Virus record (IMG/VR): IMGVR_UViG_3300031673_000182
Span: 1-40,100 of that record
DNA length: 40,100 bases
Direction: 5' to 3' (one strand)
Source of the DNA: a virus
Position numbers and translations under genes: made by a program. The first letter of the stretch is position 1, and each line of letters opens with the position of its first letter. Below the pieces are notes generated by a model. That model worked only from the letters and a program-made list of their open reading frames with translations, was not told the origin of the DNA and did no database searches. Shown here in pieces: positions 1,846-32,751 of this stretch.

Positions 1846-2427
1846 CTAATGCAATTTATGTGGATTAAGTTCGTGGGTTTGAATATATAAATTACCTGTT
1901 TTAAAAGCAGGATAATCACATTTAACTTGTATTTTCTGATCCATGACAACAAGAATATCTGTACCTTGAATATCTATTTTAACATTATCAGTTTGTTTAG
2001 TTTCAAGCCAAAATGGGAATCTTCCTATTTTTATTAATTCTATTACGCATCTAATAGCCCATTTTCCTTTTTCTGTTGTAGTCCATTTTTCATTAAAATT
2101 CCATTCATTCCATGTCATAAAATTAAGTTCTCTTATATCTTTTATCATTTTGGGTTTTACTAATTTGCCTTTTGCAGTTGGCTCATCATAATTTGGCTGA
2201 TATGCTATTGCTTCAGGAAGTTCATTTCCTTTCAAAAGCAATAAATTAATTAATTCTTTCGTTTTAAATACAAATACTTTCTGATATGTAACATGTGCCC
2301 TAATATCGCTTTTTTCTTCAAATATTCCATATTTAATTAAGTTGTAACTAATTTCTAAAGTATTATCTTTAAAGTCTAAAACACCTTGTGAATATATATT
2401 TCCAATTGTCATAATTTTAAATTTCAT
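1846..2427 (-). CDS. PD-(D/E)XK nuclease-like protein, possible restriction-type partner of the methyltransferase
   Basis: From the ATG at 2427 (MKFKIMTIGNIYS) the product is about 193 residues; ATG at 2412 is an alternative. The upstream part of the open frame overlaps the methyltransferase and is discarded. The C-terminal third reads like a PD-(D/E)XK core: a helix with a conserved glutamate (TEKGKWAIRCVIELIKIG), then DIQGTDILVV, then IQVKCDYPA giving the D and QxK signature. This pattern occurs in Hjc-like resolvases, very short patch repair and restriction nucleases. It sits immediately downstream of an MT-A70 methyltransferase with an 11-base overlap, which suggests a restriction-modification-like or repair function. 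The nuclease call is from motif reading alone. Confidence 0.55.
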   Translation of the reverse strand: MKFKIMTIGNIYSQGVLDFKDNTLEISYNLIKYGIFEEKSDIRAHVTYQKVFVFKTKELINLLLLKGNELPEAIAYQPNYDEPTAKGKLVKPKMIKDIRELNFMTWNEWNFNEKWTTTEKGKWAIRCVIELIKIGRFPFWLETKQTDNVKIDIQGTDILVVMDQKIQVKCDYPAFKTGNLYIQTHELNPHKLH

Positions 2428-3433
2428 CACCAAATGAATCCCATCCTTCATGTTCTTCTCTTGGAAATAATTCTTTTTTTCTTCCCTTTGAATACATTTC
2501 CTCAATTATTTCCCTGAATTTTTCAGGTTTTTCACTATGTTCATCTGATCTTTTTATACTTTGTACACTATCTATCAACTTTTTAGATTGTGGCAAATAC
2601 GATCCTTTTGTACATATCAAAAGAAGTTCATGCCTTACAGAATTATAATGACCATAATTATGATCCTGTTTATCCCATATAAAGGATGTTTTATATTCAA
2701 ATCCCCACGCTGTTATAACATCAAAAGATTCTTCGAGTAATGGAGAAGTGACCCATATAAACAAAACCGCATTATCGGCAGCAATTGCTTTAATAGGCAA
2801 GGCACAAAGTTCAGATATTGACATTGTTCTATAATGATGCGTTGCTGCTCCATATTCTTTTATAAGTTCATCATTATATTTCCAGGGAGGATCAGCATAA
2901 AAGACATCAAACATTTCAGGAGAATTATGTAATGCGAATTCTCTTTCTTTATCCTGTTTATATATATCAACTTGTTCTTTTAATTCTCTTACAGACCATT
3001 CTTTTGTTTCCGCTTTATTCAAAAATTCCTGCATTTTATCCATATCAGGTTCTTTGCTCCATTGCATCCTGCCCTGTTTGAGTTTTTTGTCTTTTACTAT
3101 TTCTATTTCTTTTATTGAAGTGACTTGCTTATGATGATTATAACTGAGATTTACGTTACGTAACGTAAATTCAAATTTTTCAGAAATATTTTTAAAATCT
3201 TCAAGTGTTCTATTATCATATCCAATTATTAATGCAGCTTCTTTATAAAGACCATCTCCATAATGAGTTTTCCCATCTATAAGCCAATCTCCGATTGCCC
3301 ACTGTTTTGCCTCATCAACACATTTAAGAATTATACCATAGTTATTCCATTCTTCTTTTGTTGATTGTCTTAAAATTTCTGTACCCTTATAAGTTGTGCG
3401 ATAAGCACCTGTTTGTAATTGGAGTTCATTCAT
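2417..3433 (-). CDS. MT-A70 family adenine-N6 DNA methyltransferase with N-terminal HTH-like region
   Basis: The catalytic motif DPPW is at residues 181-184, preceded by FDVFYA, and later segments (LFIWVTSPL, FIWDKQDHNYGHY, HELLLICTKG, SEKPEKFREIIEEMYS, ELFPREEHEGWDSFGDE) match the MT-A70 fold, which transfers a methyl group from S-adenosylmethionine to adenine N6. The N-terminal 150 residues resemble the ParB/KorB-like region seen in other phage MT-A70 proteins (AIGDWLIDGKTHYGD, NLSYNHHKQVTS, EWSVRELKEQV), probably DNA binding. The gene has its own Bacteroidota-type promoter and a structured leader upstream. It may protect phage DNA from host restriction. A 22-bp perfect palindrome lies inside its coding sequence. 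Confidence 0.88.
   Translation of the reverse strand: MNELQLQTGAYRTTYKGTEILRQSTKEEWNNYGIILKCVDEAKQWAIGDWLIDGKTHYGDGLYKEAALIIGYDNRTLEDFKNISEKFEFTLRNVNLSYNHHKQVTSIKEIEIVKDKKLKQGRMQWSKEPDMDKMQEFLNKAETKEWSVRELKEQVDIYKQDKEREFALHNSPEMFDVFYADPPWKYNDELIKEYGAATHHYRTMSISELCALPIKAIAADNAVLFIWVTSPLLEESFDVITAWGFEYKTSFIWDKQDHNYGHYNSVRHELLLICTKGSYLPQSKKLIDSVQSIKRSDEHSEKPEKFREIIEEMYSKGRKKELFPREEHEGWDSFGDEI
3149..3170. repeat. 22-bp perfect palindrome inside the methyltransferase gene
   Basis: The sequence from 3149 to 3170 equals its own reverse complement with no loop; the half site is ATTTACGTTAC. It encodes residues 89-95 (FTLRNVN) of the methyltransferase. A perfect 22-bp palindrome is rarely expected by chance in 40 kb, so it may bind a dimeric protein or be a methylation or nicking target. 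Confidence 0.6.
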
Positions 3434-7014: not shown

Positions 7015-7627
7015 AATAGTCATATTGTTTATAAGCGTCAAGCTCTGTTTTTACATCTTCTATCAATTTATCAAGTCTCTCTTTAAAGGTTTCAAAAAGT
7101 TCAGGTTCGGGATCAACTTTGATAATAAAGGGTTTCATTCCCGGCACGAAACTCATAAAATCGCAATAAGATAGTCCGGTTACAAATAATTGCCCTTGTA
7201 CCTGGTAACGGTAATCTGAAGGTAATTTGCCCTTTGTGATATATCCCAGATGGGTTTTCATCTTTGGACATTTTATCTCAATCATGCCGTCCGGGGTCAG
7301 TCCATCAGGAGAAATACCAATCCAGTTGTGATATTTGTGATCTTCGTCAGGAATAATAAACCCAACTTCATCAACTTTAATACCAGTGATATTTTCATAT
7401 TCCTTCCGTGCTTCCGGTTCGGTCTCAAGGCCGTGTTCCATGATGGCATTAGAGTAGGTTTCCTCCATGCGTCCGGTGATTATCTCACAAACAATATCCC
7501 CTACAAGGTCTTTATATGCCTGAGTTGAATCACCTGCCACAAGTGATTTAAAGCGTGTGCCTGTAACCCTTCCGCATTTAGCCTCAAACCAGGCTTCCGA
7601 CAATTGTTCTATTTCGTACCGTATCAT
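7007..7627 (-). CDS. YqaJ-type viral recombinase / lambda-like exonuclease
   Basis: The 206-residue protein has the YqaJ layout: EAWFEAKCGRVTGTRF at 11-26, GLETEPEAR at 67-75, ISPDGL at 105-110 with Asp108, IEIKCP at 116-121 (Glu-x-Lys, the metal site) and the helix YQVQGQL at 141-147. These are the catalytic residues of a 5'-3' double-strand exonuclease used for phage recombination. It overlaps the upstream OB-like gene by an ATGA junction and the SSB gene downstream, so the three form a recombination set. No classical annealase such as RecT or Erf is visible in the window. Confidence 0.9.
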   Translation of the reverse strand: MIRYEIEQLSEAWFEAKCGRVTGTRFKSLVAGDSTQAYKDLVGDIVCEIITGRMEETYSNAIMEHGLETEPEARKEYENITGIKVDEVGFIIPDEDHKYHNWIGISPDGLTPDGMIEIKCPKMKTHLGYITKGKLPSDYRYQVQGQLFVTGLSYCDFMSFVPGMKPFIIKVDPEPELFETFKERLDKLIEDVKTELDAYKQYDYYD

Positions 7628-8025
7628 GATGTTATCTCCTTATCCTTAGCAACCATCCATTCAAACATACATTCCGCTTCAGCATACATTTGTTCGATAG
7701 GAATAATTTTATCCTTTACAAGATCCTTCGCATAGCTCATTGCAAACCCGGAATATTTAGATTGTTCGACCTTGAGCCTTTTCCCGAAATTGGATTGTCC
7801 CTGGTTGTAGATAGGCTTAATAATAAAATAAGAGCCTTTACTTGACACCCTTTCCTCTTCAGTAAATTCCGCCTCTTGTCCTGCAATGAACTTTTTTTGA
7901 TCCCTGTATTTAGCGCTGTAATAGGCTTGTTTTCCATCATATTTGACAATATGACTATAAAGAGTATCACCTCGCTTTGATTGATATTCCTCATTGAAGG
8001 TTACGCTGGTAATTAATGCTTTCAT
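7624..8025 (-). CDS. Putative recombination-associated protein, OB-like N-terminus
   Basis: The first 80 residues form alternating beta-strand-like segments (MKALITSVTFNEEY, TLYSHIVKYDGKQAYYSAKY, QEAEFTEEERV, SYFIIKPIY) compatible with an OB fold. A short basic linker leads to a helical C-terminal part (GFAMSYAKDLVKDKIIPIEQM). Its position directly before the exonuclease, with an ATGA overlap, is where phages keep a recombinase or SSB-like partner, so it may be a ssDNA-binding or annealing factor; this is inference. It has a promoter-like TAATTTTG 25 bases upstream and the CAGAGA-type leader before the ATG. Confidence 0.6.
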   Translation of the reverse strand: MKALITSVTFNEEYQSKRGDTLYSHIVKYDGKQAYYSAKYRDQKKFIAGQEAEFTEEERVSSKGSYFIIKPIYNQGQSNFGKRLKVEQSKYSGFAMSYAKDLVKDKIIPIEQMYAEAECMFEWMVAKDKEITS

Positions 8026-20945: not shown

Positions 20946-22034
20946 TTAGCGTCCTACCATCAAAAGTCTGTCATCAAAAATCTTGGCATCAAAAGCATCA
21001 ATTGCTTCGATCCTGTTATAACGGCTTCTTTGATCGTAGAACGTGTTAATATTATCAAATAGAGAAGTACAAGCCATACCGATAGCGAGATTCGCCTTGG
21101 TGGTATAAACTGCCCTGTGAGGATCATTCCATCTTCCGGTAACAGTATCATTCTCATATGTGCGGATTATCTGATCCCACAGAGGGATTGAATAAAGAGG
21201 TATTCCATCCCATGAGGCAAACTCAAGACCATTAATCATCAGTTTGTAATCCTGAAAAGCTGTACCAAGCGCTTGTAATTGCCTGCGAAGCCTGTCCATT
21301 ACCGATTTGGTTACTAATAGAATTCTATCAGACTGAGCAGCAAGTTCAGGAATTGCTCCGTCTATCAGCGCATTTACAGCGTTGTAGGTAAGTAGAGGCG
21401 TGGCAACTGTACCTTGAAGGGCATAAGTTAACTGAACATTACCCGGCATTGCCTGAACCTGAAGCGGATTGACTGCGTAAATAGCTGCGAACTGCTGCCA
21501 GAATCCATTAATGATATTGAAGAAGGTTACATCATAACCGGGAGTAATTACCCCGGCAGGGACATTGGCTGCATTCTGATCACCAAACCAAGCATTTCTG
21601 AAAACCATCTTAGGAATATCTTTTGTAAGAATATCCAGGATGAATGCAAAAATCTGTGTTTTGGTCAGATCATAAGGATTTGTGCAATCAATATACATCT
21701 TCATTAAAGATGATTCGACCTCGTCAATACACATATCAATTATAACCTCTAGATATTTCGGTTCCCATGTTTTCTCAATAGCAGTATCTTCATAACATTG
21801 AGGCACAGGATTGCAAGCTTGTGCAGCCTTACCGATCAAGCCGAATGTACCCGGTATGATTCCAATTCTCTTGTCGTTTTTGATTCCTGTTACAAGGGTA
21901 TGAAATTCCGATATAGAGGGAGCTTCAAGAACGGCAGTAACGACCAATTCATTCAGCGAGCGGAGTTCGTCGGCTGTGAAGTGAAGTGCGTCAAGATTAA
22001 GCGTATTACCGCATGATGGTGAAGTCAATGACAT
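20946..22034 (-). CDS. Major capsid protein (HK97-like fold)
   Basis: 362 residues. The order is that of a major capsid: N-terminal SLTSPSCGNTLNLDALHFTA, RIGIIPGTFGLIGKAAQACN, KYLEVIIDMCIDEVESSLMK, then the domain with LLTYNAVNALIDGAIPELAA, DRILLVTKSVMDRLRRQLQA, and the later LEFASWDGIPLYSIPLWDQI and FYDQRSRYNRIEAIDAFDAK. It follows a ClpP-type protease with three bases between stop and ATG, the usual gene pair. It forms the icosahedral shell. The assignment rests on context and length. Confidence 0.75.
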   Translation of the reverse strand: MSLTSPSCGNTLNLDALHFTADELRSLNELVVTAVLEAPSISEFHTLVTGIKNDKRIGIIPGTFGLIGKAAQACNPVPQCYEDTAIEKTWEPKYLEVIIDMCIDEVESSLMKMYIDCTNPYDLTKTQIFAFILDILTKDIPKMVFRNAWFGDQNAANVPAGVITPGYDVTFFNIINGFWQQFAAIYAVNPLQVQAMPGNVQLTYALQGTVATPLLTYNAVNALIDGAIPELAAQSDRILLVTKSVMDRLRRQLQALGTAFQDYKLMINGLEFASWDGIPLYSIPLWDQIIRTYENDTVTGRWNDPHRAVYTTKANLAIGMACTSLFDNINTFYDQRSRYNRIEAIDAFDAKIFDDRLLMVGR

Positions 22035-22036
22035 AA

Positions 22037-23143
22037 TTATTCTTTTTTAGATTTGTTTTTAATAATTTCTTTAACACGGGCAAGATCAATTTCGCCGACT
22101 TTCTCAACAGAACTGAACTTGGTTCTGCCCTCGGGGTTCCAGTCGTTCTTAAGTGCTTTCAGTTCCTTAACGATATTCATGGCTTCCGTTTCCTTTGCCA
22201 CGAGTTCAGCTTCTTTGGCCTCAAGATCCGGCTTTTCAGCTTTCATCTGGGCTATTTCGGCTTCGAGTTGGATGATCTTCTCTTTGGCCTGATCCAGTTC
22301 CGTAGGATCACTAGATTCTGTAATCTTCGAGATCACTCCTTCAGCAATGACAATAGTCTTGCCATCTGTCATCACAAATGTTCCATCCGGTGTGGCTTTG
22401 TCGCCTACTGCCGGACTTCCTTCTTCCTTGTCAAGAGTGAATTCCTTGCCGTCCTTGTCTTTTAATGTAAGATCAGTAGGAGCTACCCGAGACAGATTTT
22501 TCAGCTTTTCCAAGATAGTATCTATCTTTTGACCGAATGTTTTGAATTCTTTTTCGTCCATTATAAATTTATTTATAGGTTTTATATATGCGTAAGCCTT
22601 AACCGGCTCAACAATTTTAGTGGCAAATCCGAGTGAAAGCATATCCTCGGCTGATAGTTTCGTGTCCTTGCTCATATAGTCAGCGAGCGTGGCTTCGTCA
22701 GCACCCGTTTTTTCAACATAGAAATCAAGTATTTTAGCCTCCTCCTGACGAAGTGCATCTGCAATTTTCTCAAGATCATCGGCCTCGTATTTATCTGCAA
22801 GGGTATATTCAGGAATATAAGGGTTATGAATCTGCCCGTCAGCATTCTTCATCATCTCCCTTTCCTCGCCTGCAAGGAATACAATTGTAGCAATTGAGTA
22901 AACTTTCCCTTCTCCTACCGTTTTGATTTTCTTGCCTGAGTTGGTAAGTAGATCATAAATAGCCCATCCTTCCTGAACATCTCCCCCCCTAGAATTGATT
23001 TTAACCGTTAGTTCAGTAGCATCTTTATTTTCATCAAGGAATTCAGATATTTTCTTGGAAGAAATAGATTCTTCAACTCCCATAAGAAGAGCCATTTCAT
23101 TTGACTCTCCTATATCACCGTAGATTTTGAGTGTGGCTTCCAT
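22037..23143 (-). CDS. ClpP/S14-type head maturation protease with C-terminal scaffold
   Basis: Residues 1-185 are a ClpP-like serine protease: NSRGGDVQEGWAIYDLL, VYSIATIVFLAG with Ser83, QIHNP with His106 and SKDTKLSAEDMLSLGFA with Asp160, the S-H-D triad. From about 195 on, the protein is hydrophilic and mostly coiled coil (about 280-345, AKEKIIQLEAEIAQMKAEK), the shape of a scaffolding domain. An internal ATG at 22561 (MDEKEFKTFG, residue 195) would give a separate scaffold, as in lambda Nu3. The protease cleaves scaffold and capsid N-termini during head maturation. Next gene is the major capsid. Confidence 0.9.
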   Translation of the reverse strand: MEATLKIYGDIGESNEMALLMGVEESISSKKISEFLDENKDATELTVKINSRGGDVQEGWAIYDLLTNSGKKIKTVGEGKVYSIATIVFLAGEEREMMKNADGQIHNPYIPEYTLADKYEADDLEKIADALRQEEAKILDFYVEKTGADEATLADYMSKDTKLSAEDMLSLGFATKIVEPVKAYAYIKPINKFIMDEKEFKTFGQKIDTILEKLKNLSRVAPTDLTLKDKDGKEFTLDKEEGSPAVGDKATPDGTFVMTDGKTIVIAEGVISKITESSDPTELDQAKEKIIQLEAEIAQMKAEKPDLEAKEAELVAKETEAMNIVKELKALKNDWNPEGRTKFSSVEKVGEIDLARVKEIIKNKSKKE

Positions 23144-23294: not shown

Positions 23295-23371
23295 AACTAT
23301 ATTTTTTATCTTATCATGGATACAAATATAAATCAACCCTTATGTATTAACAAATATTCTGCTGAACCTGA

Positions 23372-23893
23372 TTATTCAGTAAGGATTCCATTACCGTGAA
23401 TGATCATCTTACATCCCTTCTTTTCCAGAGCTGCTGCCAGATTCTTAAAATGAGTCTTTATTTTGAAACACAATTTCCCGTTAAGGTGAGGATGGTTAGT
23501 CATATCAATCCCGAATAGATGAATTTCGGTTGCCCCGTAATACCAGAATCCGACCTGGCAGGCTACAAATGGGCTGCAATAAGACTTAGCCATTGCGTTA
23601 CGATCAAGAATACATATCTTCTCCGGGTATCCCTCCTTAATATTGATCTTTACAAAATCATCTCTTTTATCCCAATTGACTACCTGACTATAAAAAGCTT
23701 CCGGTTTACTTTCATTGATTACTTTCAGCCTCTCAGGAGTAAATGCCTTTTCCCTGTCAAGGCATACAATCACATCGGTTTTATAGAATCGCCAAATATC
23801 ATTGACTCCAATTATCTTATCGAATCCTTCAGGCTTAAATAGATCCCGTGAAGAGCCAAGCCCGACTACAGCTATTATATTTTTTTTATTCAT
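23372..23893 (-). CDS. Sialyltransferase/DUF115-like glycosyltransferase-related protein
   Basis: 173 residues from ATG at 23893; an ATG at 23914 adds seven. The Rossmann-like N-terminus IIAVVGLGSSRDLFK, then GVNDIWRFYKTDVIVCLDRE, and later ATEIHLFGIDMTNH follow the order seen in DUF115/MptE-like proteins and GT-42-like sialyltransferases (a G-x-S start and a final LFGxD motif). It lies downstream of the terminator that ends the sugar cassette, so it is transcribed with the head genes. It could move or add a sugar to virion protein or surface glycans. Family is a guess. Confidence 0.45.
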   Translation of the reverse strand: MNKKNIIAVVGLGSSRDLFKPEGFDKIIGVNDIWRFYKTDVIVCLDREKAFTPERLKVINESKPEAFYSQVVNWDKRDDFVKINIKEGYPEKICILDRNAMAKSYCSPFVACQVGFWYYGATEIHLFGIDMTNHPHLNGKLCFKIKTHFKNLAAALEKKGCKMIIHGNGILTE

Positions 23894-24054
23894 TAATTTA
23901 TTATACCTTCGCAATAATTAGATTGTGATGAGCTTGATAACTCAAAATCAATTTAGTAAACGCAGGACAAAATTTAACAGGCTTTTACCTGCATGAAGAC
24001 TTAATATCTGAACATTAAATATTTTGATAGTATACATGGATAAATATTTAATGG

Positions 24055-24082
24055 AAAAAAAGGAATATCAACCCTTGATATT
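24055..24082 (-). terminator. Intrinsic terminator ending the tail/sugar operon
   Basis: Minus-strand AATATCAA-GGG-TTGATATT is an 8-bp stem with a three-base loop, followed by CC and a run of seven T. It lies 20 bases after the stop of the last sugar gene and about 160 bases before the next gene, dividing the structural region into two transcription units. No clear consensus promoter was found in the gap; a TTAAATTTTG stretch near 23970 is the best -7 candidate. Confidence 0.8.
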
Positions 24083-24102
24083 AAGTCTTTAGAGGTCTGT
24101 AG

Positions 24103-24798
24103 CTATAATTCCCATCCCTGCTCAATTTCTTGTTTGCCTTTCCTTCTCCTGTCCTTACGAGTTCCTGCTGTATCGTGTTTTATCCATTCCCCGGGAACTG
24201 CTGACCATACAAAACCTTTTCCGTGAGTATGACCAAGTCCTGGGAATCGTTTTATTATTTTACCCGTTAATCCTTGTTTGTGTATATCAAGTGCAGCCTT
24301 GAAACATGGTGCCCCATGATGAACATACCTATGAAACTTAAAATAATTCTTTACCTGTAACAGATGAAAAAACGGGTGTAGCATATACATATAGGGCTGA
24401 TTCCTGTGTTGAGGCTTTGCTCCGTATTCATATCCATCATAAGCTGATTTTTCCAAGTAACCTACTCCATAAGTATCATCCTCCATCATTTCTAACATAA
24501 ACTGAACGGGACTTTTCAGCATGACTATATCTGAATCAAAAAGCAGGGCGAATCTGGTCTTTACTTGTCTTATCGCTAAATCCATACCACGCCCATGTCC
24601 AACATTTGTTTCACAAAGCATAAGCATAGTATATTGAGAAGATAAACTTTCAACATAAGAACGACATGGATCATAGGAATCAGAGCCATCTATAATAATT
24701 ATCATCATTTTTGGATGAAACTTCCTTACTGACTCATAAGCGTTTCGCAGCAAATCGACTGTGTTGTGACTGACCACGATCCCGGTAATATCCTTCAT
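24103..24798 (-). CDS. GT2-like glycosyltransferase
   Basis: From ATG 24798 (MKDITGIVVSHNTVDLLRNA) the product has the GT-A fold marks: the strand ITGIVVSHNT, the second strand MMIIIIDGSDSYDP, TNVGHGRGMDLAIRQVKTRF and the DxD motif in LLFDSDIVML that holds the sugar nucleotide via a metal ion. It would transfer a sugar from a nucleotide donor. The gene overlaps the end of the preceding transferase by 65 bases and closes the cassette before a strong terminator. No membrane segment; the C-terminus is basic (RKDRRRKGKQE). Confidence 0.75.
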   Translation of the reverse strand: MKDITGIVVSHNTVDLLRNAYESVRKFHPKMMIIIIDGSDSYDPCRSYVESLSSQYTMLMLCETNVGHGRGMDLAIRQVKTRFALLFDSDIVMLKSPVQFMLEMMEDDTYGVGYLEKSAYDGYEYGAKPQHRNQPYMYMLHPFFHLLQVKNYFKFHRYVHHGAPCFKAALDIHKQGLTGKIIKRFPGLGHTHGKGFVWSAVPGEWIKHDTAGTRKDRRRKGKQEIEQGWEL

Positions 24799-25492
24799 AG
24801 AATTTTGCATCATTGCCTATATGTTTTTGTAAGAATTTCATTCCAATATCATTTGACATTGCCATAGCCAAATGATGCCCTGCTCCTATTCCACCCCTTC
24901 CCGGCATACCCTTCATTCCTAATGAGAGAAAGCCGTCAAAGAACAAAAATTTATTAGGACATTGTTGCCACATTTTAGCATCAATAAATTTGTCCCTATA
25001 ACTGGCTTCTAAAATCGGAATAGCATCCCAGGTAAACGCTGTCTGAAACAGGCTTGCATGGTGACGGTTAGGATTAGTGACAAACCGTCGCCATTGAACA
25101 TTGTAATATATCGTATTCGTTTCTCCGAGCAGCCAATGATTACCAAACTTACCCATCATCCGTTCCAGATAAACAGGTTTGTAATAATCATCATCCTCTA
25201 TAATGAAAATGGCCTCGATCTGCTTTTTCTTATAGGTATCTTTCAGCCAATCAATCCCGGCTTTGATATTTCGTGCCTGAGTATTATTTCCTGCCCACTG
25301 AGGACGGGGATAAATCTTTACTATCGTCCATCTTCCGGGAAAATTATAAGTACCGTTATCAATGGTAATAGGTACAGCATCATCAACTACAATCCAGACA
25401 ACTTCACCCTTATAGGTCTGTCTATTCATCCACCTTTTACATAGTTCAAATTGTCTTTTCCTTGCCCCTGTTGGTGTAATTAAAACTATCAT
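24734..25492 (-). CDS. GT-A family glycosyltransferase
   Basis: 252 residues. MIVLITPTGARKRQFELCKR is the first strand-helix of a GT-A fold; VWIVVDDA the second; NNTQARNIKAGIDWL the donor-side helix; and IFIIEDDDYY with Asp100-102 is the DxD metal-binding motif. The remainder (MPGRGGIGAGHHLAMAMSND and following) should hold the acceptor site. It overlaps the epimerase gene upstream by four bases and the next transferase downstream. A cytoplasmic soluble enzyme of unknown sugar specificity. Confidence 0.72.
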   Translation of the reverse strand: MIVLITPTGARKRQFELCKRWMNRQTYKGEVVWIVVDDAVPITIDNGTYNFPGRWTIVKIYPRPQWAGNNTQARNIKAGIDWLKDTYKKKQIEAIFIIEDDDYYKPVYLERMMGKFGNHWLLGETNTIYYNVQWRRFVTNPNRHHASLFQTAFTWDAIPILEASYRDKFIDAKMWQQCPNKFLFFDGFLSLGMKGMPGRGGIGAGHHLAMAMSNDIGMKFLQKHIGNDAKFYEGYYRDRGQSQHSRFAAKRL

Positions 25493-26442
25493 AATAATTT
25501 AGTTTGCCATTCTATTGTTTTTTTTAAACCATCTATAATAGAATACGATGGTTTAAAACCCAACATATCTGTTATTTTATCTATGTTTGGTATTTTTGAC
25601 ATTACATCTTCATACTTGCCAAAATCAGAATATGGGATATATATTATTGGTACAATCTTTCCTGTCAATTCACAAATAATATTTGCCAATTCATTTATGG
25701 TTATTGCCGTTAATGGATTACCAATATTAAAAACCTCATTTGTGGATCTCTTATTAAAGATACATCGCATAATCCCATCTATCGTATCTTCAATATAGGT
25801 GAAACATCTCGATTGCATTCCGGTACCATGTATATCTATTGGTTTTCCTTCAAGACAATTCTGAATAAATAATCCTTGTGGCCCTCCCCACCATGTTATA
25901 TTTTGGTTCTCACCATAAACACTAAATAACCTCATTATCGTATATTCTAACCCAAACTCTTCAGAACATGCTATGATATAATGCTCACCATATATCTTTG
26001 ATACAGCATAAGACCACCTTTTAATATCAGTTCTTCCTAATACTAATTCCGATTCTTCCGAAAAAGGGATATTCATATTCTTTCCATATACATCAGATGT
26101 AGATGCGAAAAGAAGTCTGGCTTCATTTTCTAAACATGCATTAACAATATTTTTTAACATCTTCTCATTGTCTGATAGTGTAGCATAAGAATTATCATAC
26201 CTGGGAATCTTCTGAGTAGCCAAATGTATTGCAATATCAAAATTTATTCCCTTAATATTTTCTTCTAATGTTATATCCATTTCATAAAAAATAAATAATG
26301 AATTATTCCAAATATCTTTTATATTTCTCCTACATCCATGAGAGAAGATATCTATTCCTATTACAGTATGTCCTCCATCGATTAATGTACTGGCAAGGTT
26401 TGATCCTATAAAACCGGCAACTCCTGTTATTAAAATTCTCAT
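25489..26442 (-). CDS. NAD-dependent sugar epimerase/dehydratase (extended SDR)
   Basis: 317 residues. The cofactor-binding GxxGxxG motif is at 7-13 (TGVAGFIG), Asp31 follows the second strand (IGIDIF), STS at 114-116 and YAVSK at 145-149 give the catalytic S/T-Y-K set. These are the hallmarks of GalE/RmlB-like enzymes that convert UDP- or dTDP-sugars at C4 or C5. The cassette also holds several glycosyltransferases, for which it could provide the donor. The DNA here is more AT-rich than in neighbouring virion genes, suggesting recent acquisition. Confidence 0.9.
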   Translation of the reverse strand: MRILITGVAGFIGSNLASTLIDGGHTVIGIDIFSHGCRRNIKDIWNNSLFIFYEMDITLEENIKGINFDIAIHLATQKIPRYDNSYATLSDNEKMLKNIVNACLENEARLLFASTSDVYGKNMNIPFSEESELVLGRTDIKRWSYAVSKIYGEHYIIACSEEFGLEYTIMRLFSVYGENQNITWWGGPQGLFIQNCLEGKPIDIHGTGMQSRCFTYIEDTIDGIMRCIFNKRSTNEVFNIGNPLTAITINELANIICELTGKIVPIIYIPYSDFGKYEDVMSKIPNIDKITDMLGFKPSYSIIDGLKKTIEWQTKLL

Positions 26443-26444
26443 GC

Positions 26445-27263
26445 TTATAAATTATTTATAATATCAGAAATCATTTTTGATCTTATCTTGTGGGTATGCT
26501 TTAATTCTGTAATATATCTAAGCTCCTTTTGTATTTCTATATTTGGGCGGAACCTCTTTATTATCTCTTTCAGATTATCTACTGTATCAAAATATGTGAT
26601 CAGTTCATCAGGATAATAATAATTCATATTCTCTGTTCGGTTGGAAATTATTTGCGTTCCACATGAAGCAAATTCCAATATTTTTGCACGTACCTTATTT
26701 ACTATTTCAGAAACAGTATGAATCGCTGCTCCACTGTTTTGTAATAATCTTATATAATCATCACCAATACATTCTATATGATTCATTATTTTGCTAATCT
26801 CCATCCGCAAAGGATATGCCTTAGATATAGTACAACAAAATGCTATTCCTTTGCCGCCATATTTTGCTGTAAACCTATTTGTATTAACACTCCAGGGCAA
26901 CCATTGTGAATTTTTACTTGGTGTATTTCCATTCTTATCAAGGCAACGATAAAATATAAAATCTATATTATCATAAAGTGGATCATTAAATGAATTATAG
27001 CAACTATCAGATTCAAATAATACTATTCTCGCTTTGCTGTCTTTCATTTTATTAATAACATCCATATTCTCAGGTTGTTTTGAATATCTATTTATGGGAA
27101 TGCTGAATATTATATCATATTTATCAAAATAACTTTTATTATATTTTTTCAATTCACCCCTGAGAATCCTATCCCCATCAAATAAATCCCAAAGATCCAT
27201 AGCAATCCTTCGTTTTTCGGTTTGCCGTAAAGTACCCTCTTGGTATATTTTTAATATTTTCAC
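26445..27263 (-). CDS. CgeB-like glycosyltransferase
   Basis: GTG at 27263 (MKILKIYQEGTLRQ) is preferred; an upstream TTG would overlap the previous gene. The middle (IVLFESDSCYNSFNDP, FIFYRCLDKNG, WLPWSVNTNRF) and the C-terminal segment VNKVRAKILEFASCGTQIIS and YFDTVDNLKEIIKRF resemble CgeB/Glyco_trans_1_2 proteins, where the E-x-x-A-x-G stretch contacts the nucleotide sugar. It is AT-rich like its neighbour. It probably transfers a sugar to a growing glycan or protein. Confidence 0.65.
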   Translation of the reverse strand: MKILKIYQEGTLRQTEKRRIAMDLWDLFDGDRILRGELKKYNKSYFDKYDIIFSIPINRYSKQPENMDVINKMKDSKARIVLFESDSCYNSFNDPLYDNIDFIFYRCLDKNGNTPSKNSQWLPWSVNTNRFTAKYGGKGIAFCCTISKAYPLRMEISKIMNHIECIGDDYIRLLQNSGAAIHTVSEIVNKVRAKILEFASCGTQIISNRTENMNYYYPDELITYFDTVDNLKEIIKRFRPNIEIQKELRYITELKHTHKIRSKMISDIINNL

Positions 27264-27264
27264 T

Positions 27265-27990
27265 TTACAAGACAATTTTTTGTATGTATTTATATTCAGG
27301 TATCGTTCTCATATCAATCAATTCATTCTTATTCCAAATCCAGCCTTTTTTATGTCCTTCAAGATAATGAACTCCATAGTTACGATCAAGCCCTGCATCC
27401 CAAGCCCTTGACCTCCTTCTGAATGTATGTTCCCGCTCTGCTTTGGGTTTACAATTGCCATAATTAATTAAAATGCCATCAACATTTAAAACTTTTCTCC
27501 TTTTTATAATAATTGAATCTGCATTAAAGCTGAATGGCTCCTGATATTTAGCTATCATATACAGCATGTTCCCTTTCCTGGCATAGAAGAAATGATCTTT
27601 ATTTGGAATTACAAATCGCTCCCCGGTATTGTGCATATTAAAATGTCTTACACCAATTATATTGTATCCTTCCTTATCAGCCTTCTCAATAGTCTCCCTT
27701 ATTGTACCATCAAAGGAATAGATAATATCTATCCCTGTATAAACTACCCAATCTGGTTTGATCTCCTTAATCGCTTTTATTAATCCGGCCTGTAATTGGA
27801 GTAAATGAAACAACCCTCCTGTCTTGCAGATGCTAGTTCTTACCTTATTTTTTGCAAGCCATTCTTTTGTACCATCTATTGAATGATTGTCAAGAATGAA
27901 TATGTCACATCCTTGATCCCGGTAATATTTTACCATGTCAGCAATGTATTTGATCTCATTATAAGCAAATGCAACCGCCAGTATCTTCAT
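27265..27990 (-). CDS. GT2/GT-A-like glycosyltransferase
   Basis: 241 residues. FAYNEIKYIADMVKYYRDQG, then CDIFILDNHSIDGTKEWL is the typical N-terminus of Glyco_tranf_2_4 proteins. The expected DxD strand reads DWVVYTGIDIIYSF, where only the second Asp is kept, so metal binding may differ. The C-terminal third is basic and aromatic (RRSRAWDAGLDRNYGVHYLE). The gene overlaps neighbours by a few bases on both sides in the sugar cassette. Confidence 0.65.
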   Translation of the reverse strand: MKILAVAFAYNEIKYIADMVKYYRDQGCDIFILDNHSIDGTKEWLAKNKVRTSICKTGGLFHLLQLQAGLIKAIKEIKPDWVVYTGIDIIYSFDGTIRETIEKADKEGYNIIGVRHFNMHNTGERFVIPNKDHFFYARKGNMLYMIAKYQEPFSFNADSIIIKRRKVLNVDGILINYGNCKPKAEREHTFRRRSRAWDAGLDRNYGVHYLEGHKKGWIWNKNELIDMRTIPEYKYIQKIVL

Positions 27991-28811
27991 ATAGCATCCA
28001 GTATTTTCTTTGCCATTATTTCAGGGCTGAGATTTTCTGCTGCCCACTCATTTTGGCGTTTAACTATTCTCCCAACTTTTTCCCGATCATTTATTAAGCC
28101 AATCAAATCGTTCTCAAATCTTTTTTTATCAGTCCATAATATAGGAGGGAGATTATCTCCTTTAGGTTTTATTCCTGATATGACAGCACAATCAAGTAGC
28201 ATTGCTTCCAGTCCTGATTTGCCAAGCCCTCTGTGAATCTGGTCAATAAAGATACTAAAATATGCTTTTATCCTGATCGTATCCAGCCAGCTTTTATTCA
28301 TTATAACAGTTAAAGGTATATTGTTCTTTGCACAAATAGATTGGATATGAGGCGTTCCTTTCTCTTTAAGTTTTGAGGCATGAAATGGGCTATGACATAT
28401 AAGCCCTGTTTTTTTCTTATCAACATCAGGTATAATGAAAGGCTGATAATAGATATTCTTGGTGCCACATAAAGGAGCAAGATCAGGCATGGCAAATACA
28501 TTCCACTTATGTTTTGCTATGATATTGTTATAGGTTCCGGGATCTTTTAAGTATGTACTGTCAGTAAGAATTATGGTAACTCCTTTATCCCATAGATGCC
28601 GGGGAAAATTGCGTAATGATATTGCTCCTATTATAATATAGTGATCACACAAGGGAGTGATAGTACCAATAATACAATCAGTTTGAGAGTACATCCCCTT
28701 AATATCTTTACTTCTGAATACAGTAGTAATGTCAACGAATTTTTTAAACCCTTCGGCAAGTGCTGCTCCATTACCGTATGTTGCATCATTTGATATCAGT
28801 CCTATCTTCAT
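27987..28811 (-). CDS. GT-B-like glycosyltransferase
   Basis: ATG at 28811 (MKIGLISNDATYGNGAALAE) replaces an upstream TTG. The product (274 residues) has a Rossmann-like start with a glycine-rich turn and a C-terminal half with FIDQIHRGLGKSGLEAMLLD and CAVISGIKPKGDNLP, matching the nucleotide-sugar site of GT4-type transferases (an E-x7-E-like pattern). It overlaps the upstream gene by 26 bases. Probably one of a set of enzymes building a glycan. Confidence 0.65.
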   Translation of the reverse strand: MKIGLISNDATYGNGAALAEGFKKFVDITTVFRSKDIKGMYSQTDCIIGTITPLCDHYIIIGAISLRNFPRHLWDKGVTIILTDSTYLKDPGTYNNIIAKHKWNVFAMPDLAPLCGTKNIYYQPFIIPDVDKKKTGLICHSPFHASKLKEKGTPHIQSICAKNNIPLTVIMNKSWLDTIRIKAYFSIFIDQIHRGLGKSGLEAMLLDCAVISGIKPKGDNLPPILWTDKKRFENDLIGLINDREKVGRIVKRQNEWAAENLSPEIMAKKILDAI

Positions 28812-29550
28812 ATTCAAGCCATTCAGTTCCTATGTTAATAAAGTTTTTGATTTTCCACGATACTTCGTGAATATTCTCATGTGATCTGTTCTTATTGATA
28901 TTGGTGATACTTGAAATTACATCATCTATATTTCGCCACCTGATTGAGGACGGGATGCCTCCGTTATAGATGCTCTTTCTTCCCATCATCCCCATCTCTA
29001 GAACCGTATTAGGAAGTCCATCATGCTTGGTAAGTCGTAAACCTATGAAACATTTACGATACACTTCAAGTAATTGATCCTTTGTGTAAGTGTCTTTCGT
29101 AGTCCTGTATATTTTTAATCCGGTTGCCTTCTCGATTTTGTTTAAGTGTTTATGGCCGTAGAAGTCACTCTGCCCGTAATGGAAAATGCAATCTCCCAAT
29201 GGTAATGGCTTTATATCATACTGCTGCCACGATACAGGTAGTATCTTATGAGGGATTCCAAATTTCTTAAGATCATCACTCATAAATTCGCTCTTTACAA
29301 TATGTGTTGCAGGAACTTGTTTTAGGATTTTAGCCCTCTCCGAGGTTATCATTAACGCATCAGTACCGCACCAAACCACAACTATTTTATTATTGAATCT
29401 CCTTAATGCCGAATAGTCAGAATCATCGTACATACCGAAAAAGACAACTGGTTTATATATATTATAGCAATCTAAAAGATTGAACTTAGAAAGATATGAG
29501 CTTTTAAATGTAGCTATGCTATTACTGATCCGTGCCTGTGTTATTTTCAT
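28786..29550 (-). CDS. GT4-like (GT-B) glycosyltransferase
   Basis: 254 residues. The N-terminal half has strand-helix units (PVVFFGMYDDSDYSALRRFN, IVVVWCGTDALMI). The C-terminal half contains IFHYGQSDFYG and the donor-site motif FIGLRLTKHDGLPNTVLEMG, MMGRKSIYNG, the clearest GT-B signature in this cassette. It follows the ATP-grasp gene with an ATGA overlap. A cytoplasmic transferase; substrate unknown. Confidence 0.75.
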   Translation of the reverse strand: MKITQARISNSIATFKSSYLSKFNLLDCYNIYKPVVFFGMYDDSDYSALRRFNNKIVVVWCGTDALMITSERAKILKQVPATHIVKSEFMSDDLKKFGIPHKILPVSWQQYDIKPLPLGDCIFHYGQSDFYGHKHLNKIEKATGLKIYRTTKDTYTKDQLLEVYRKCFIGLRLTKHDGLPNTVLEMGMMGRKSIYNGGIPSSIRWRNIDDVISSITNINKNRSHENIHEVSWKIKNFINIGTEWLEYEDRTDIK

Positions 29551-30311
29551 AGTAGAGATTGTAAAAATATAGCTAGGTCATTTTCAACCTCCTTACCATT
29601 AGGGAGATAATCAAAGACGTTCCCACCGGGGATATTATTAACATCTATAATGTAAAGATTCCCGGTACTGTTATCCCGGATCGTATCTAATTCACCAATA
29701 TCAAGTCCTATGGTTTTACAAAATTGCTGAATGTTATGGATGTCTTGTACTGATAGATAATTCTCCGGCTTATCAACCCAATATTTCTTTTTCTTGGATA
29801 GTGTATTCTCAAATGTACCTTCAATAGTTTTGGCTTTCAGGAATACAAGAGGTATTTCTCCTAAAAATATAGGCACTCTCAAGTCGCAAATCATATTAAT
29901 AGCAATACGATTGTCAAGCAATAACTGATAAACATATCCCGGTTCTTTCTTACATGGCATTCTTATAATTTTACCATCATGTGCTGATTGCCTGTCTGTC
30001 TTTCTTACGCAATAACCGAATGAGTTTGTGTTTGCTAAACTGCTATACCCAAATACAGTTGTGAACACTTTATCTACATTTGTCTTGGTAACATCTGTAA
30101 GTCTCATATTCAGGATCGGCCTATTATCATCAAGGAATATTTCAGGAATCTTATTTACATCATTATAATTCCAATGAACACCAATGATCCAATCAGAAGA
30201 TATATCGTTCGTTAGCTTATATCCTAATATCTGAAAATATCTTATTGATTTACTTAATGAATGTCCGGTCATTTGGACAGGCGGGTCGGGATAAAAGAGG
30301 ACTTTATTCAT
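29547..30311 (-). CDS. ATP-grasp-like enzyme
   Basis: 254 residues. The N-terminal part looks like a pre-ATP-grasp domain (MNKVLFYPDPPVQMTGHSLS, ending near ILNMRLTDVTKTNVDKVF). The C-terminal motif GLDIGELDTIRD (Asp204, Glu207, Asp209) followed by IIDVNNIPGGNVFDYLP (Asp223, Asn225) is the D...E.N-type metal and ATP site of ATP-grasp ligases. Such enzymes join a carboxylate to an amine or thiol. Next to sugar genes it may attach an amino acid or similar group to a glycan; that is inference. Overlaps its neighbours by four bases. Confidence 0.65.
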   Translation of the reverse strand: MNKVLFYPDPPVQMTGHSLSKSIRYFQILGYKLTNDISSDWIIGVHWNYNDVNKIPEIFLDDNRPILNMRLTDVTKTNVDKVFTTVFGYSSLANTNSFGYCVRKTDRQSAHDGKIIRMPCKKEPGYVYQLLLDNRIAINMICDLRVPIFLGEIPLVFLKAKTIEGTFENTLSKKKKYWVDKPENYLSVQDIHNIQQFCKTIGLDIGELDTIRDNSTGNLYIIDVNNIPGGNVFDYLPNGKEVENDLAIFLQSLL

Positions 30312-30538
30312 ATTCCGGCCTCCATTTTTTTAATAATATCATATACCAATCTCATTGAAACTTTAAAATCCTGTCCGACAAACTTTACAGCCTTGTTTAC
30401 TAACTCTCCTGTTTTCCTGTAATAGTCATATCTCGAATAGATAAGCCAATGCTTTATGACGCAATAAGAGGTAATCCCAATCTTGACATCTGTCTTTATC
30501 CTGTCAATATTTTCGCCTATGTAAGTGAATAAATTCAT
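30308..30538 (-). CDS. Small HTH-like hypothetical protein, 76 aa
   Basis: 76 residues. The N-terminal helix begins MNLFTYIGENIDRIKTDVKI. The C-terminal stretch NKAVKFVGQDFKVSMRLVYD then IIKKME has the spacing of a helix-turn-helix, as in other small phage proteins ending in a VSxRTVYRxxKxM-like helix. It follows the tape measure gene with an ATGA overlap and opens towards the sugar cassette. Might bind DNA; not certain. Confidence 0.5.
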   Translation of the reverse strand: MNLFTYIGENIDRIKTDVKIGITSYCVIKHWLIYSRYDYYRKTGELVNKAVKFVGQDFKVSMRLVYDIIKKMEAGI

Positions 30539-32751
30539 ATAGTTGCCCTGACTTCAACTTTCCTTTTACTCTCCGCTTTTGCGTTAATATCTTCAACAGT
30601 CACTATCGGTGGAGGAAGATTCATTATGGCTTCTGCGATATCTGCTGCTGTTAATAGATTGCCCTGTTGAGCTGCATTAAGTTCTGTTTGTGTTAATTGC
30701 TGCTGAGTGATAAATGATGATGCCACCGGAGTAGCAAAGGTTCGCTGTGCCATAGGAGTTGTTGTAATCGCTGTCGGGATACTCCCTCCTCCCCCTGTGT
30801 CTCCCGGAAGGCCGGACTTAACAGCTAATATCTTTTTAACGCTTGCCACACCTGTTGCTATTGCTGCTGCCATTGATATCCCTGCTGCAATCTGTCCGAT
30901 TAATGGAAGGCCTGCCATAGATTTGTATGCCTGCATAGCAGCCTCATAGGTGGCGATTGTTGTAGCTGCTATTGCGGCAGCCTTCCCAACGGCTGACGAC
31001 TTGCCAAAAATAATAGCAAGATTAGCAGCCATCCCTCTCCATAAAGCGAGTTTTGCATCCTTCTCCTCCTCATCAAGAAGCTTCTTATATTCAACATATT
31101 TTTGATTGATAAGCAAAATATCCGCCCCGGTTTTTTCAGCAAATTCAAGTTCGAGCAATCTCTCATTATCGAGCCTTTCACGTTCAAGAGCAAAGATATT
31201 CTCATTTTGCATCTCCCGGACTGCCAGATCGTTCTCAAAATCAATCTGTTTCCTGTTGCGCTCCCAATCGGCAAGATCCTCTGCATCCTTTTTCTTCTTA
31301 GTAATGGCATCAGCATCCTCCTTCTGCATCTCCTCGATCATCTTTGCCTCTTCGAGGAGTTGCTTAATCAATTCAGCTCTTGCTTTTTCAGCTTCCTTCA
31401 ATGCCTCATCGGCCGCCTTCTTGGCTTCATCTAACTTCTTTTTCTTATCATCTGCTACAGCTTTCTGCTGCTGTAATTCAAAGCTCGATAATTTAGCAAC
31501 GTTCCTTTTCTGCTCTGTGAAAAATTTAGTATCCAGATCAAGCCAATTAGCATAAAGATTTTCGAGTTCAACGGCTTTATCCTCATTATTATCCCTCCAT
31601 GTTTTAAGGGCTTCGCTTGCATTAGCCTGCTCCGCATCGGTCATGCGTGTAAATGCAATCAACTCCTTCGTTGTCAATCCATTAATCTTCGCCTGGGCAA
31701 CCACTGCTGCCGTGAATCTGTCCTGTGCAAATTTCTTCTGTGCTTCAAGTTCTTCCTCTCCAATTTTTATTGCCAATTGAAGCGCTGCTTTTCTCCTCGC
31801 AACGGGGATAGTGAGATCTTGTGCCATGAGTTCAAGCCGAGCAATTTCCTTCCTGTTCTCTGCCGATTCAGATATATAATTCTGTTCTGCATTAGATATT
31901 GTGTCAAGCATTTGAATATAATCATAGGCAGCTTGAGTTGCTTCTTTTATTTGTTTACCCATCCCTCCGAATGAGTCTGCCATCTTATTTCTAAGTGTCT
32001 CCCAATCAAGGTTTATCAGTGCTTTTATCCCGTCTATAAATGCTAATACTCGCTGCCTTATCACATCAAGTATTACCCGGAGTTGCTCCATCCGGGCAGC
32101 CATCTCCGTTGCTCCCGAATCTGTTGTTTTAATAATCTTCAACAATCCGGCTAATGCTGCTGTAATACCAGCTATGATTAGAATTATAGGATTGGCGAGC
32201 AGGAGTTTTGAATATCTTGATATTGCCTGCCCTGCCCTGCCTATCGGCCCCGGTATGGCTTGAAACTGTGCTGCCGATCCTTCGATAGCTTCCGAATATA
32301 GTCCAACAGACGAGCGACCATCCAACTGCGCCTTATCGTATTCTATGATAGCATTTTTTGTTTCTTTAATTCGTTTTGTCTGCTCAATATATAGAGGGTT
32401 TAGTTTCCTCAGTCCCTTCTCATCCTGAATATATGCATTACCAAGTTTCCCAAGTGCCTGTTGTTGCAGCCGAAGGACTTCCCCTAATTGTTTGCGGCTA
32501 CCTGTCTCTGAATTAAGTGCAGAAGTGTAAACATCCAGCACCTTTTTTGAATCTGTATATTCCTTTTTGGCTACACGAATAGCCGCTGCGCTTTTCTGAA
32601 GTTCCTCATTTGATGCCTTGCCACTACCTTTTAGCCTGATATGTGCTGCGGTAAGTTCATCAACATTCTTCCCGGCCTCCTCCGCTTCTTTGGCATATTG
32701 ATCGAGGTTGCTCTCGACATTTACCAGATATGTTTTTTTCTCGTCAGGCAT
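30535..32751 (-). CDS. Tape measure protein
   Basis: 738 residues. Long coiled-coil stretches (about 15-130 and 290-560, rich in A, E, K and Q, e.g. KKLDEAKKAADEALKEAEKA) flank a hydrophobic region LLLANPIILIIAGITAALAG at about 185-205, and the C-terminal third is Ala/Ile-rich with AGISMAAAIATGVASVKKIL. These are the features of siphovirus tail length-determining proteins, placed before the hub gene in the tail order. At about 1.5 angstrom per residue the tail would be near 110 nm. Gene ends four bases inside the following gene. Confidence 0.9.
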   Translation of the reverse strand: MPDEKKTYLVNVESNLDQYAKEAEEAGKNVDELTAAHIRLKGSGKASNEELQKSAAAIRVAKKEYTDSKKVLDVYTSALNSETGSRKQLGEVLRLQQQALGKLGNAYIQDEKGLRKLNPLYIEQTKRIKETKNAIIEYDKAQLDGRSSVGLYSEAIEGSAAQFQAIPGPIGRAGQAISRYSKLLLANPIILIIAGITAALAGLLKIIKTTDSGATEMAARMEQLRVILDVIRQRVLAFIDGIKALINLDWETLRNKMADSFGGMGKQIKEATQAAYDYIQMLDTISNAEQNYISESAENRKEIARLELMAQDLTIPVARRKAALQLAIKIGEEELEAQKKFAQDRFTAAVVAQAKINGLTTKELIAFTRMTDAEQANASEALKTWRDNNEDKAVELENLYANWLDLDTKFFTEQKRNVAKLSSFELQQQKAVADDKKKKLDEAKKAADEALKEAEKARAELIKQLLEEAKMIEEMQKEDADAITKKKKDAEDLADWERNRKQIDFENDLAVREMQNENIFALERERLDNERLLELEFAEKTGADILLINQKYVEYKKLLDEEEKDAKLALWRGMAANLAIIFGKSSAVGKAAAIAATTIATYEAAMQAYKSMAGLPLIGQIAAGISMAAAIATGVASVKKILAVKSGLPGDTGGGGSIPTAITTTPMAQRTFATPVASSFITQQQLTQTELNAAQQGNLLTAADIAEAIMNLPPPIVTVEDINAKAESKRKVEVRATI

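Follow-up and report, generated by a model that had tools for sequence, protein, structure and literature searches.

A hypervariable glycosyltransferase cassette in the tail operon of an uncultured phage, a candidate locus for virion glycosylation

The IMG/VR virus record IMGVR_UViG_3300031673_000182 (40,100 bases, cut inside TerL; hereafter, the window) carries its virion genes on the minus strand in the order TerL, tail genes, tape measure, a 76-residue protein, a cassette of sugar-related genes, a ClpP-type protease, the major capsid protein (MCP) and the portal. We analyzed this cassette from sequences and predicted structures. An initial annotation had described eight co-directional minus-strand open reading frames (ORFs) at 24103-30311 between the tape measure and the head protease and MCP genes, and these are real (Table 1). 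They were said to overlap throughout, as every junction does except that of the CgeB-like and SDR genes, where there is a 2-nucleotide (nt) gap. However, the unit does not end at 24103. A ninth gene had been missed and, with it, a conserved core that includes GTc and a Maf/CstII-like enzyme.

The core occupies the 3' end of the cassette. A search with the MCP retrieved 56 IMG/VR loci. Of those long enough, 18/18 carry GTc, 22/23 carry GT2a and 30/31 carry the Maf/CstII-like gene. These relatives were fetched by their capsid, so the counts have no bias towards the cassette. GTc had been listed as a third GT-A-like transferase. The window's protein has no Pfam match of its own, but 15 of 26 relatives match PF00535 (best E = 1.4e-6) and the acidic EDDD motif (DxD type) is invariant. 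Judged by these matches and motif, GTc is a divergent relative of GT2. A clean profile comparison of GT2a with GTc returned no relation.

The third core gene, the ninth of the cassette, is predicted to fold like CstII and the central domain of Maf, a common fold being no proof of activity. Its model aligned (VIA-align) with the Maf central domain 5mu5 at Z 12.8 (161 residues, root-mean-square deviation 3.2), with an archaeal HPPK at Z 11.3 and with the CstII sialyltransferase at Z 9.8. Foldseek also matched it to CstII (E = 7e-4), whereas Pfam matches were sub-threshold only. The similarity of the Maf central domain (PF01973) to CstII is known, and Maf enzymes attach O-linked sugars to serines and threonines of flagellin (PMC11339370). 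The phage protein shares this fold as a single domain of ~170 residues without the flanking Maf domains. We count the gene as part of the cassette because GT2a overlaps its counterpart in most relatives, running directly into it with a typical overlap of 13 nt.

Table 1. Cassette genes and neighboring features of the window.
Feature	Position	Strand	Evidence
Tail tape measure protein, from which the cassette operon continues	30535..32751	-	phrog_3336 (E = 4e-6); homologous to Bacteroides phage BS-TP3 gp60
76-residue Mor-domain-like small protein; left cassette boundary, itself no sugar gene	30308..30538	-	26% identical to BS-TP3 gp61 ('Mor domain')
Variable: probable ATP-grasp ligase	29547..30311	-	sub-threshold ATP-grasp matches, C-terminal part; homologs only in L003, L010, L060
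Variable: GT-B-like by inspection	28786..29550	-	no profile match; homologs in L017, L048, L003
Variable: GT-B-like by inspection	27987..28817	-	no profile match; homologs in L010, L060, L058
Variable: GT-A family 2 glycosyltransferase	27265..27990	-	PF00535 (E = 1.5e-8)
Variable: CgeB-like glycosyltransferase	26445..27275	-	PF13524 (E = 1.1e-6); 29% GC
Variable: extended SDR nucleotide-sugar epimerase/dehydratase	25489..26442	-	PF01370 (E = 1e-42), phrog_540; 30% GC
Core: GTc, GT2-related glycosyltransferase	24734..25492	-	motifs IEDDDYY and GIGAGH
Core: GT2a, GT-A family 2 glycosyltransferase	24103..24813	-	PF00535 (E = 3.8e-12)
Lineage-specific 189-bp insertion	23915..24102	-	13-nt inverted repeats 23996-24008 / 24077-24089; absent from most relatives
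Core: Maf/CstII-like (GT42/PF01973 fold) glycosyltransferase, ninth cassette gene	23372..23914	-	AF2 pLDDT 93.6; conserved start probably 23893
Bacteroidota-type promoter match TTTG-N20-TATATTTG, head operon start	23323..23354	-	motif in homologous intergenic regions
ClpP-type head maturation protease; right boundary	22037..23143	-	phrog_94 (E = 1.4e-37)
MCP	20946..22034	-	match to a BS-TP3 protein with a structure-based annotation as phage major capsid

A 189-bp insertion common to the window, L002 and L004 parts GT2a from the Maf-like gene. The 'strong terminator' proposed for the end of the unit lies inside it, and this hairpin and T-run (-4.2 kcal/mol) is not beyond shuffled sequences. Simple promoter and terminator scans also gave results no better than shuffles. 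The insertion itself contains perfect 13-nt inverted repeats, its core folds strongly (-25 kcal/mol, z -4.5), and it looks like a small mobile or repeat element. At the same junction, L010 carries an HNH/AP2-like homing-endonuclease ORF (7394-7849, minus strand), and GIY-YIG-like ORFs lie in or near the cassettes of L020, L060 and L112, all identified by inspection. This suggests that homing nucleases help move cassette genes.

The cassettes of the relatives also lie between the tape measure and the head protease and overlap the tape-measure operon. Thus, they are not found only outside virion operons, the distribution that the initial annotation had named as contrary to virion decoration. The distance from the tape measure to the 76-residue gene is at most 19 nt in 28/28 relatives, and from that gene through to the Maf-like one, 203 of the 215 junctions are overlaps or gaps of no more than 10 nt. 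With genes overlapping and continuous with the tape measure, the glycosyltransferases are positioned for co-expression with virion genes. The gap between the Maf-like gene and the protease measures 19-1301 nt in 27 of 28 cases and a Bacteroidota-type promoter motif occurs in 7/56 of the homologous intergenic regions (0.4 expected), so the head operon seems to start separately from the cassette. The motif and the location of L149 inside a Bacteroidales metagenome-assembled genome (MAG) indicate that these uncultured viruses probably infect Bacteroidota hosts.

The genes upstream of the core, 1 to 7 of them between the 76-residue gene and GTc, are hypervariable. Together with those of the window, their 130 ORFs fall into 45 families. 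The 30 phages show 26 different gene orders, and 267 of the 435 phage pairs have no variable family in common. Most variable genes differ between the window and L003, its closest full relative (capsid 90% identical). DNA homology between the two covers the flanks, GT2b and GTc-GT2a and is lacking over 30307-27992 and 27307-25495, a pattern of allele replacement. The most foreign of the genes are AT-rich (CgeB 29% and SDR 30% GC versus 42% in the MCP). Bacterial O-antigen and capsule loci likewise combine conserved flanks with exchangeable low-GC sugar genes. However, those loci have a lipid-carrier initiating enzyme, a flippase and a polymerase, none of which was found in the cassettes.

Profiles of the variable genes include glycosyltransferases, SDR/RmlD proteins, methyltransferases (a C-methyltransferase among them), GNAT, DegT-type, PglD-type hexapeptide, FAD-dependent and radical-SAM/B12 enzymes. 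A radical-SAM/B12-binding enzyme recurs as a variable member in L040, L042, L044, L049 and L149 (PF04055 and PF02310, tested in L042). In the window, the families named by the initial annotation are supported above Pfam cut-offs for PF00535 (two ORFs), PF13524 and PF01370, but the two GT-B-like ORFs had no profile match in Pfam, PHROG or NCBIfam. Its ATP-grasp enzyme is plausible but unproven: sub-threshold matches to ITPK and D-Ala-D-Ala ligase fall in the C-terminal segment and the protein has conserved D/DxN motifs, but the structure model is of low confidence (pLDDT 42) and a pattern search of IMG/VR returned no relative. The gene is accessory in few phages rather than core. The amino- and methyltransferases, the probable ATP-grasp ligase and the radical-SAM/B12 enzymes, all soluble, could instead make a sugar-modified small molecule or modify a non-structural protein of host or phage. 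We consider this improbable because glycosyltransferases predominate, the core has glycosyltransferase-type folds only and the cassette sits in the virion operons of unrelated modules.

The opposite target, the surface of the infected cell, deserves more weight. Enzymes of this kind could remodel the host's lipopolysaccharide (LPS) or capsule and block superinfection or the re-adsorption of progeny, as has been proposed for the glycosyltransferases of pelagimyophages, cyanophages and Gratiaviridae (PMC7029224, PMC7824862, PMC8008677), and the O-antigen-like variability of the cassette fits this as well. Yet no flippase, polymerase, Gtr-type protein or initiating transferase was found in any cassette. 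In a simple hydropathy test, every one of the 253 (130+123) cassette proteins had fewer than two hydrophobic segments, and the initiating phosphoglycosyltransferase family PF02397 was absent from 17 viral records. The lack of multi-pass proteins and initiating transferases argues against a self-contained surface-polysaccharide pathway. Long-term lysogenic conversion is also unlikely because the same 17 records, some of them incomplete, had no tyrosine integrase or resolvase. Furthermore, coupling to tape-measure or connector genes suggests late expression, and the core is kept in unrelated virion modules while the variable parts differ in close relatives. Host-surface remodeling is thus an unlikely explanation, if the strongest of the alternatives. 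The sugar genes of pelagimyophage and cyanomyophage islands (PMC7029224) and jumbo cyanophage clusters (PMC7824862) are similarly polymorphic and, in pelagimyophages, located in the structural region. However, the pelagimyophage islands span tens of kilobases, include tail fibers and are read as host LPS modification, whereas the cassette is a compact operon of overlapping genes, three of which form a fixed core.

Phage glycosyltransferases can also modify DNA, and the window has a DNA methyltransferase gene (2417-3433). Yet glycosylation of DNA bases is very improbable given the location in a tail operon and the glycan-type enzyme repertoire. Furthermore, no member of the thymidylate-synthase/hydroxymethylase family (PF00303) was found in the 17 records, that of the window being incomplete and oxygenase-type base hydroxylases lying outside the search.

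The distribution of GTc extends the association with virion genes beyond the window's module. Profile searches of IMG/VR returned 168 and 213 GTc relatives, and 80 of each were kept. Deduplicated by GTc sequence only, they represent 78 distinct loci, all necessarily with GTc; 49 were scored as belonging to the window's module, 22 lay in a second module and 7 elsewhere. The second module, with portal, protease and MCP identified by profile, has the order MCP, small genes, a CstII2-like gene (phrog_4603 'sialyltransferase', E = 3e-24), variable genes, GTc, a sulfotransferase (PF13469), head-tail connectors and tail tube. The sulfotransferase follows GTc in 21/22 loci and a connector comes next in 18/22; L084 has the three fixed genes only. 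Located directly behind GTc, the sulfotransferase of L116 (10702-11367) and its 20 homologs raise the possibility of sulfated virion glycans.

GTc is inside at least three other virion modules, mostly with a Maf/CstII- or sialyltransferase-like partner. For example, a GTc-GT2a fusion in L060 lies just ahead of TerL, portal and an SU10-like capsid gene. In L152 and numerous other modules of proteobacterial type, the CstII2-like gene and GTc are flanked by Phage_capsid and a gp6-like connector, often without other sugar genes. In L156, from a Firmicutes MAG, TerL is followed by a GT42-like gene, GTc, more GT-like genes and the tape measure. A distance of 10 kb or less to virion genes is expected in 40-kb genomes, and what counts in the argument is that the genes directly adjoin or overlap and keep a fixed order.

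GTc is unlikely to have its home in bacteria, as it was located at 8 loci among 84,980 species genomes and, in whole-genome searches, was clear in 1/393 genomes of the order of G015 and 1/369 genomes of the class of G410. In a Bacteroidales MAG, a lone GTc gene (L151, 5899-6591) has what look like ordinary chromosomal genes as neighbors and no phage genes around it. Among 50,697 deposited phage records, neither GTc nor the GT42-like protein had a match, and the matches of CstII2 were confined to distant jumbo phages of Caulobacter/Brevundimonas and a single uncultured phage.

Taken together, we estimate a probability of about 0.68 that the region 23372-30311 is a phage locus for the cytoplasmic glycosylation of virion proteins through a soluble pathway with serotype-like variation. 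The initial annotation had also favored virion proteins over DNA, and this is the best-supported reading given the tape-measure coupling (28/28), the GTc core in unrelated virion modules and the lack of a thymidylate-synthase-type enzyme. For expression timing, enzyme activities, acceptor, glycan structure and purpose we infer the following scheme. The cassette would be expressed late in infection as the distal part of the tail operon. Its core enzymes (GTc, GT2a and the Maf/CstII-fold transferase) would probably put the first sugars on a particle protein, and the Maf-like enzyme is a candidate for the sugar-protein linkage, as Maf is on flagellin. The variable enzymes encoded upstream may then lengthen and modify the glycan from host nucleotide sugars. 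Recombination would exchange the variable part among phages and give each its own virion glycan type.

Several points weigh against this model. The similar islands of pelagimyophages and jumbo cyanophages have been interpreted as host O-antigen modification (PMC7029224, PMC7824862), and soluble transferases could act on lipid-linked host glycans at the inner membrane face. Adjacency to virion genes suggests co-expression rather than a target. The Maf-like enzyme lacks the other two domains of Maf, and genes for nonulosonate synthesis (NeuB, CMP-sugar synthetase) were not found in the 17 records, so either the host supplies its donor or the donor is something other than a nonulosonate. Finally, profile comparison returned no link between the GT42-like protein and the CstII2 of the second module. 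The two are related by fold or label only, and we do not claim them as one family.

Virion glycosylation of capsid and tail-tube proteins is described for the mycobacteriophages Che8, Corndog and Myrna (Freeman et al. 2023, as cited in PMC12363180 and PMC11256854). There, phage glycosyltransferases were shown to act on capsid or tail proteins of the same infection, as we propose here. Those papers name one or a few glycosyltransferases for each phage (Maravista has its own near the 3' genome end), whereas the cassette is a multi-enzyme unit that belongs to the tail operon and joins exchangeable sugar enzymes to a conserved core. GTc itself matched nothing in the phage records searched. Part of what had been suggested as a not yet described pathway is thus known, this kind of modification being established in mycobacteriophages; the new parts are the hypervariable architecture and the cross-module core. 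To judge from the open-licence literature, neither the three-gene core nor its recurrence across families appears to have been described before.

Bacteroides phage BS-TP3 (PQ571276; L157/L158) is the closest isolate that has the window's module. Its tape measure, Mor-like, ClpP and MCP genes are homologous to those of the window and stand in the same order, and an integrase is annotated. Its cassette slot contains thioredoxin- and SusD-like genes and no annotated sugar gene, which indicates that the slot is accessory and accepts other cargo. The 76-residue gene precedes the cassette in 29/29 full relatives, overlapping the tape measure or within 19 nt of it, its place at the left following from the selection of these 29 cassettes as full. 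The fixed position of this Mor/HTH-like protein between tape measure and cassette, in the relatives and in BS-TP3, makes it a possible regulator or tail factor.

More tentatively, GTc and a Maf/CstII-like enzyme could be a general, undescribed O-glycosylation core for virion proteins in unrelated tailed phages of several bacterial phyla, with exchangeable enzymes (a sulfotransferase in one module) building serotype-like glycans that vary like O-antigens. If such a core exists, its variable glycans might serve, for example, in adsorption tuning or escape from particle recognition, a role we put forward with equal reserve. Similar two-gene cores adjoin capsid genes, and some of them (L173 and L177, for example) apparently belong to prophages of isolates, judged by IMG/VR names only. 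A frequent reading of phage glycosyltransferases is that they act against the host surface, and this locus is a test case for the opposite reading. If it is true, virion surfaces would be diversified by the swapping of sugar genes and not only by protein mutation.

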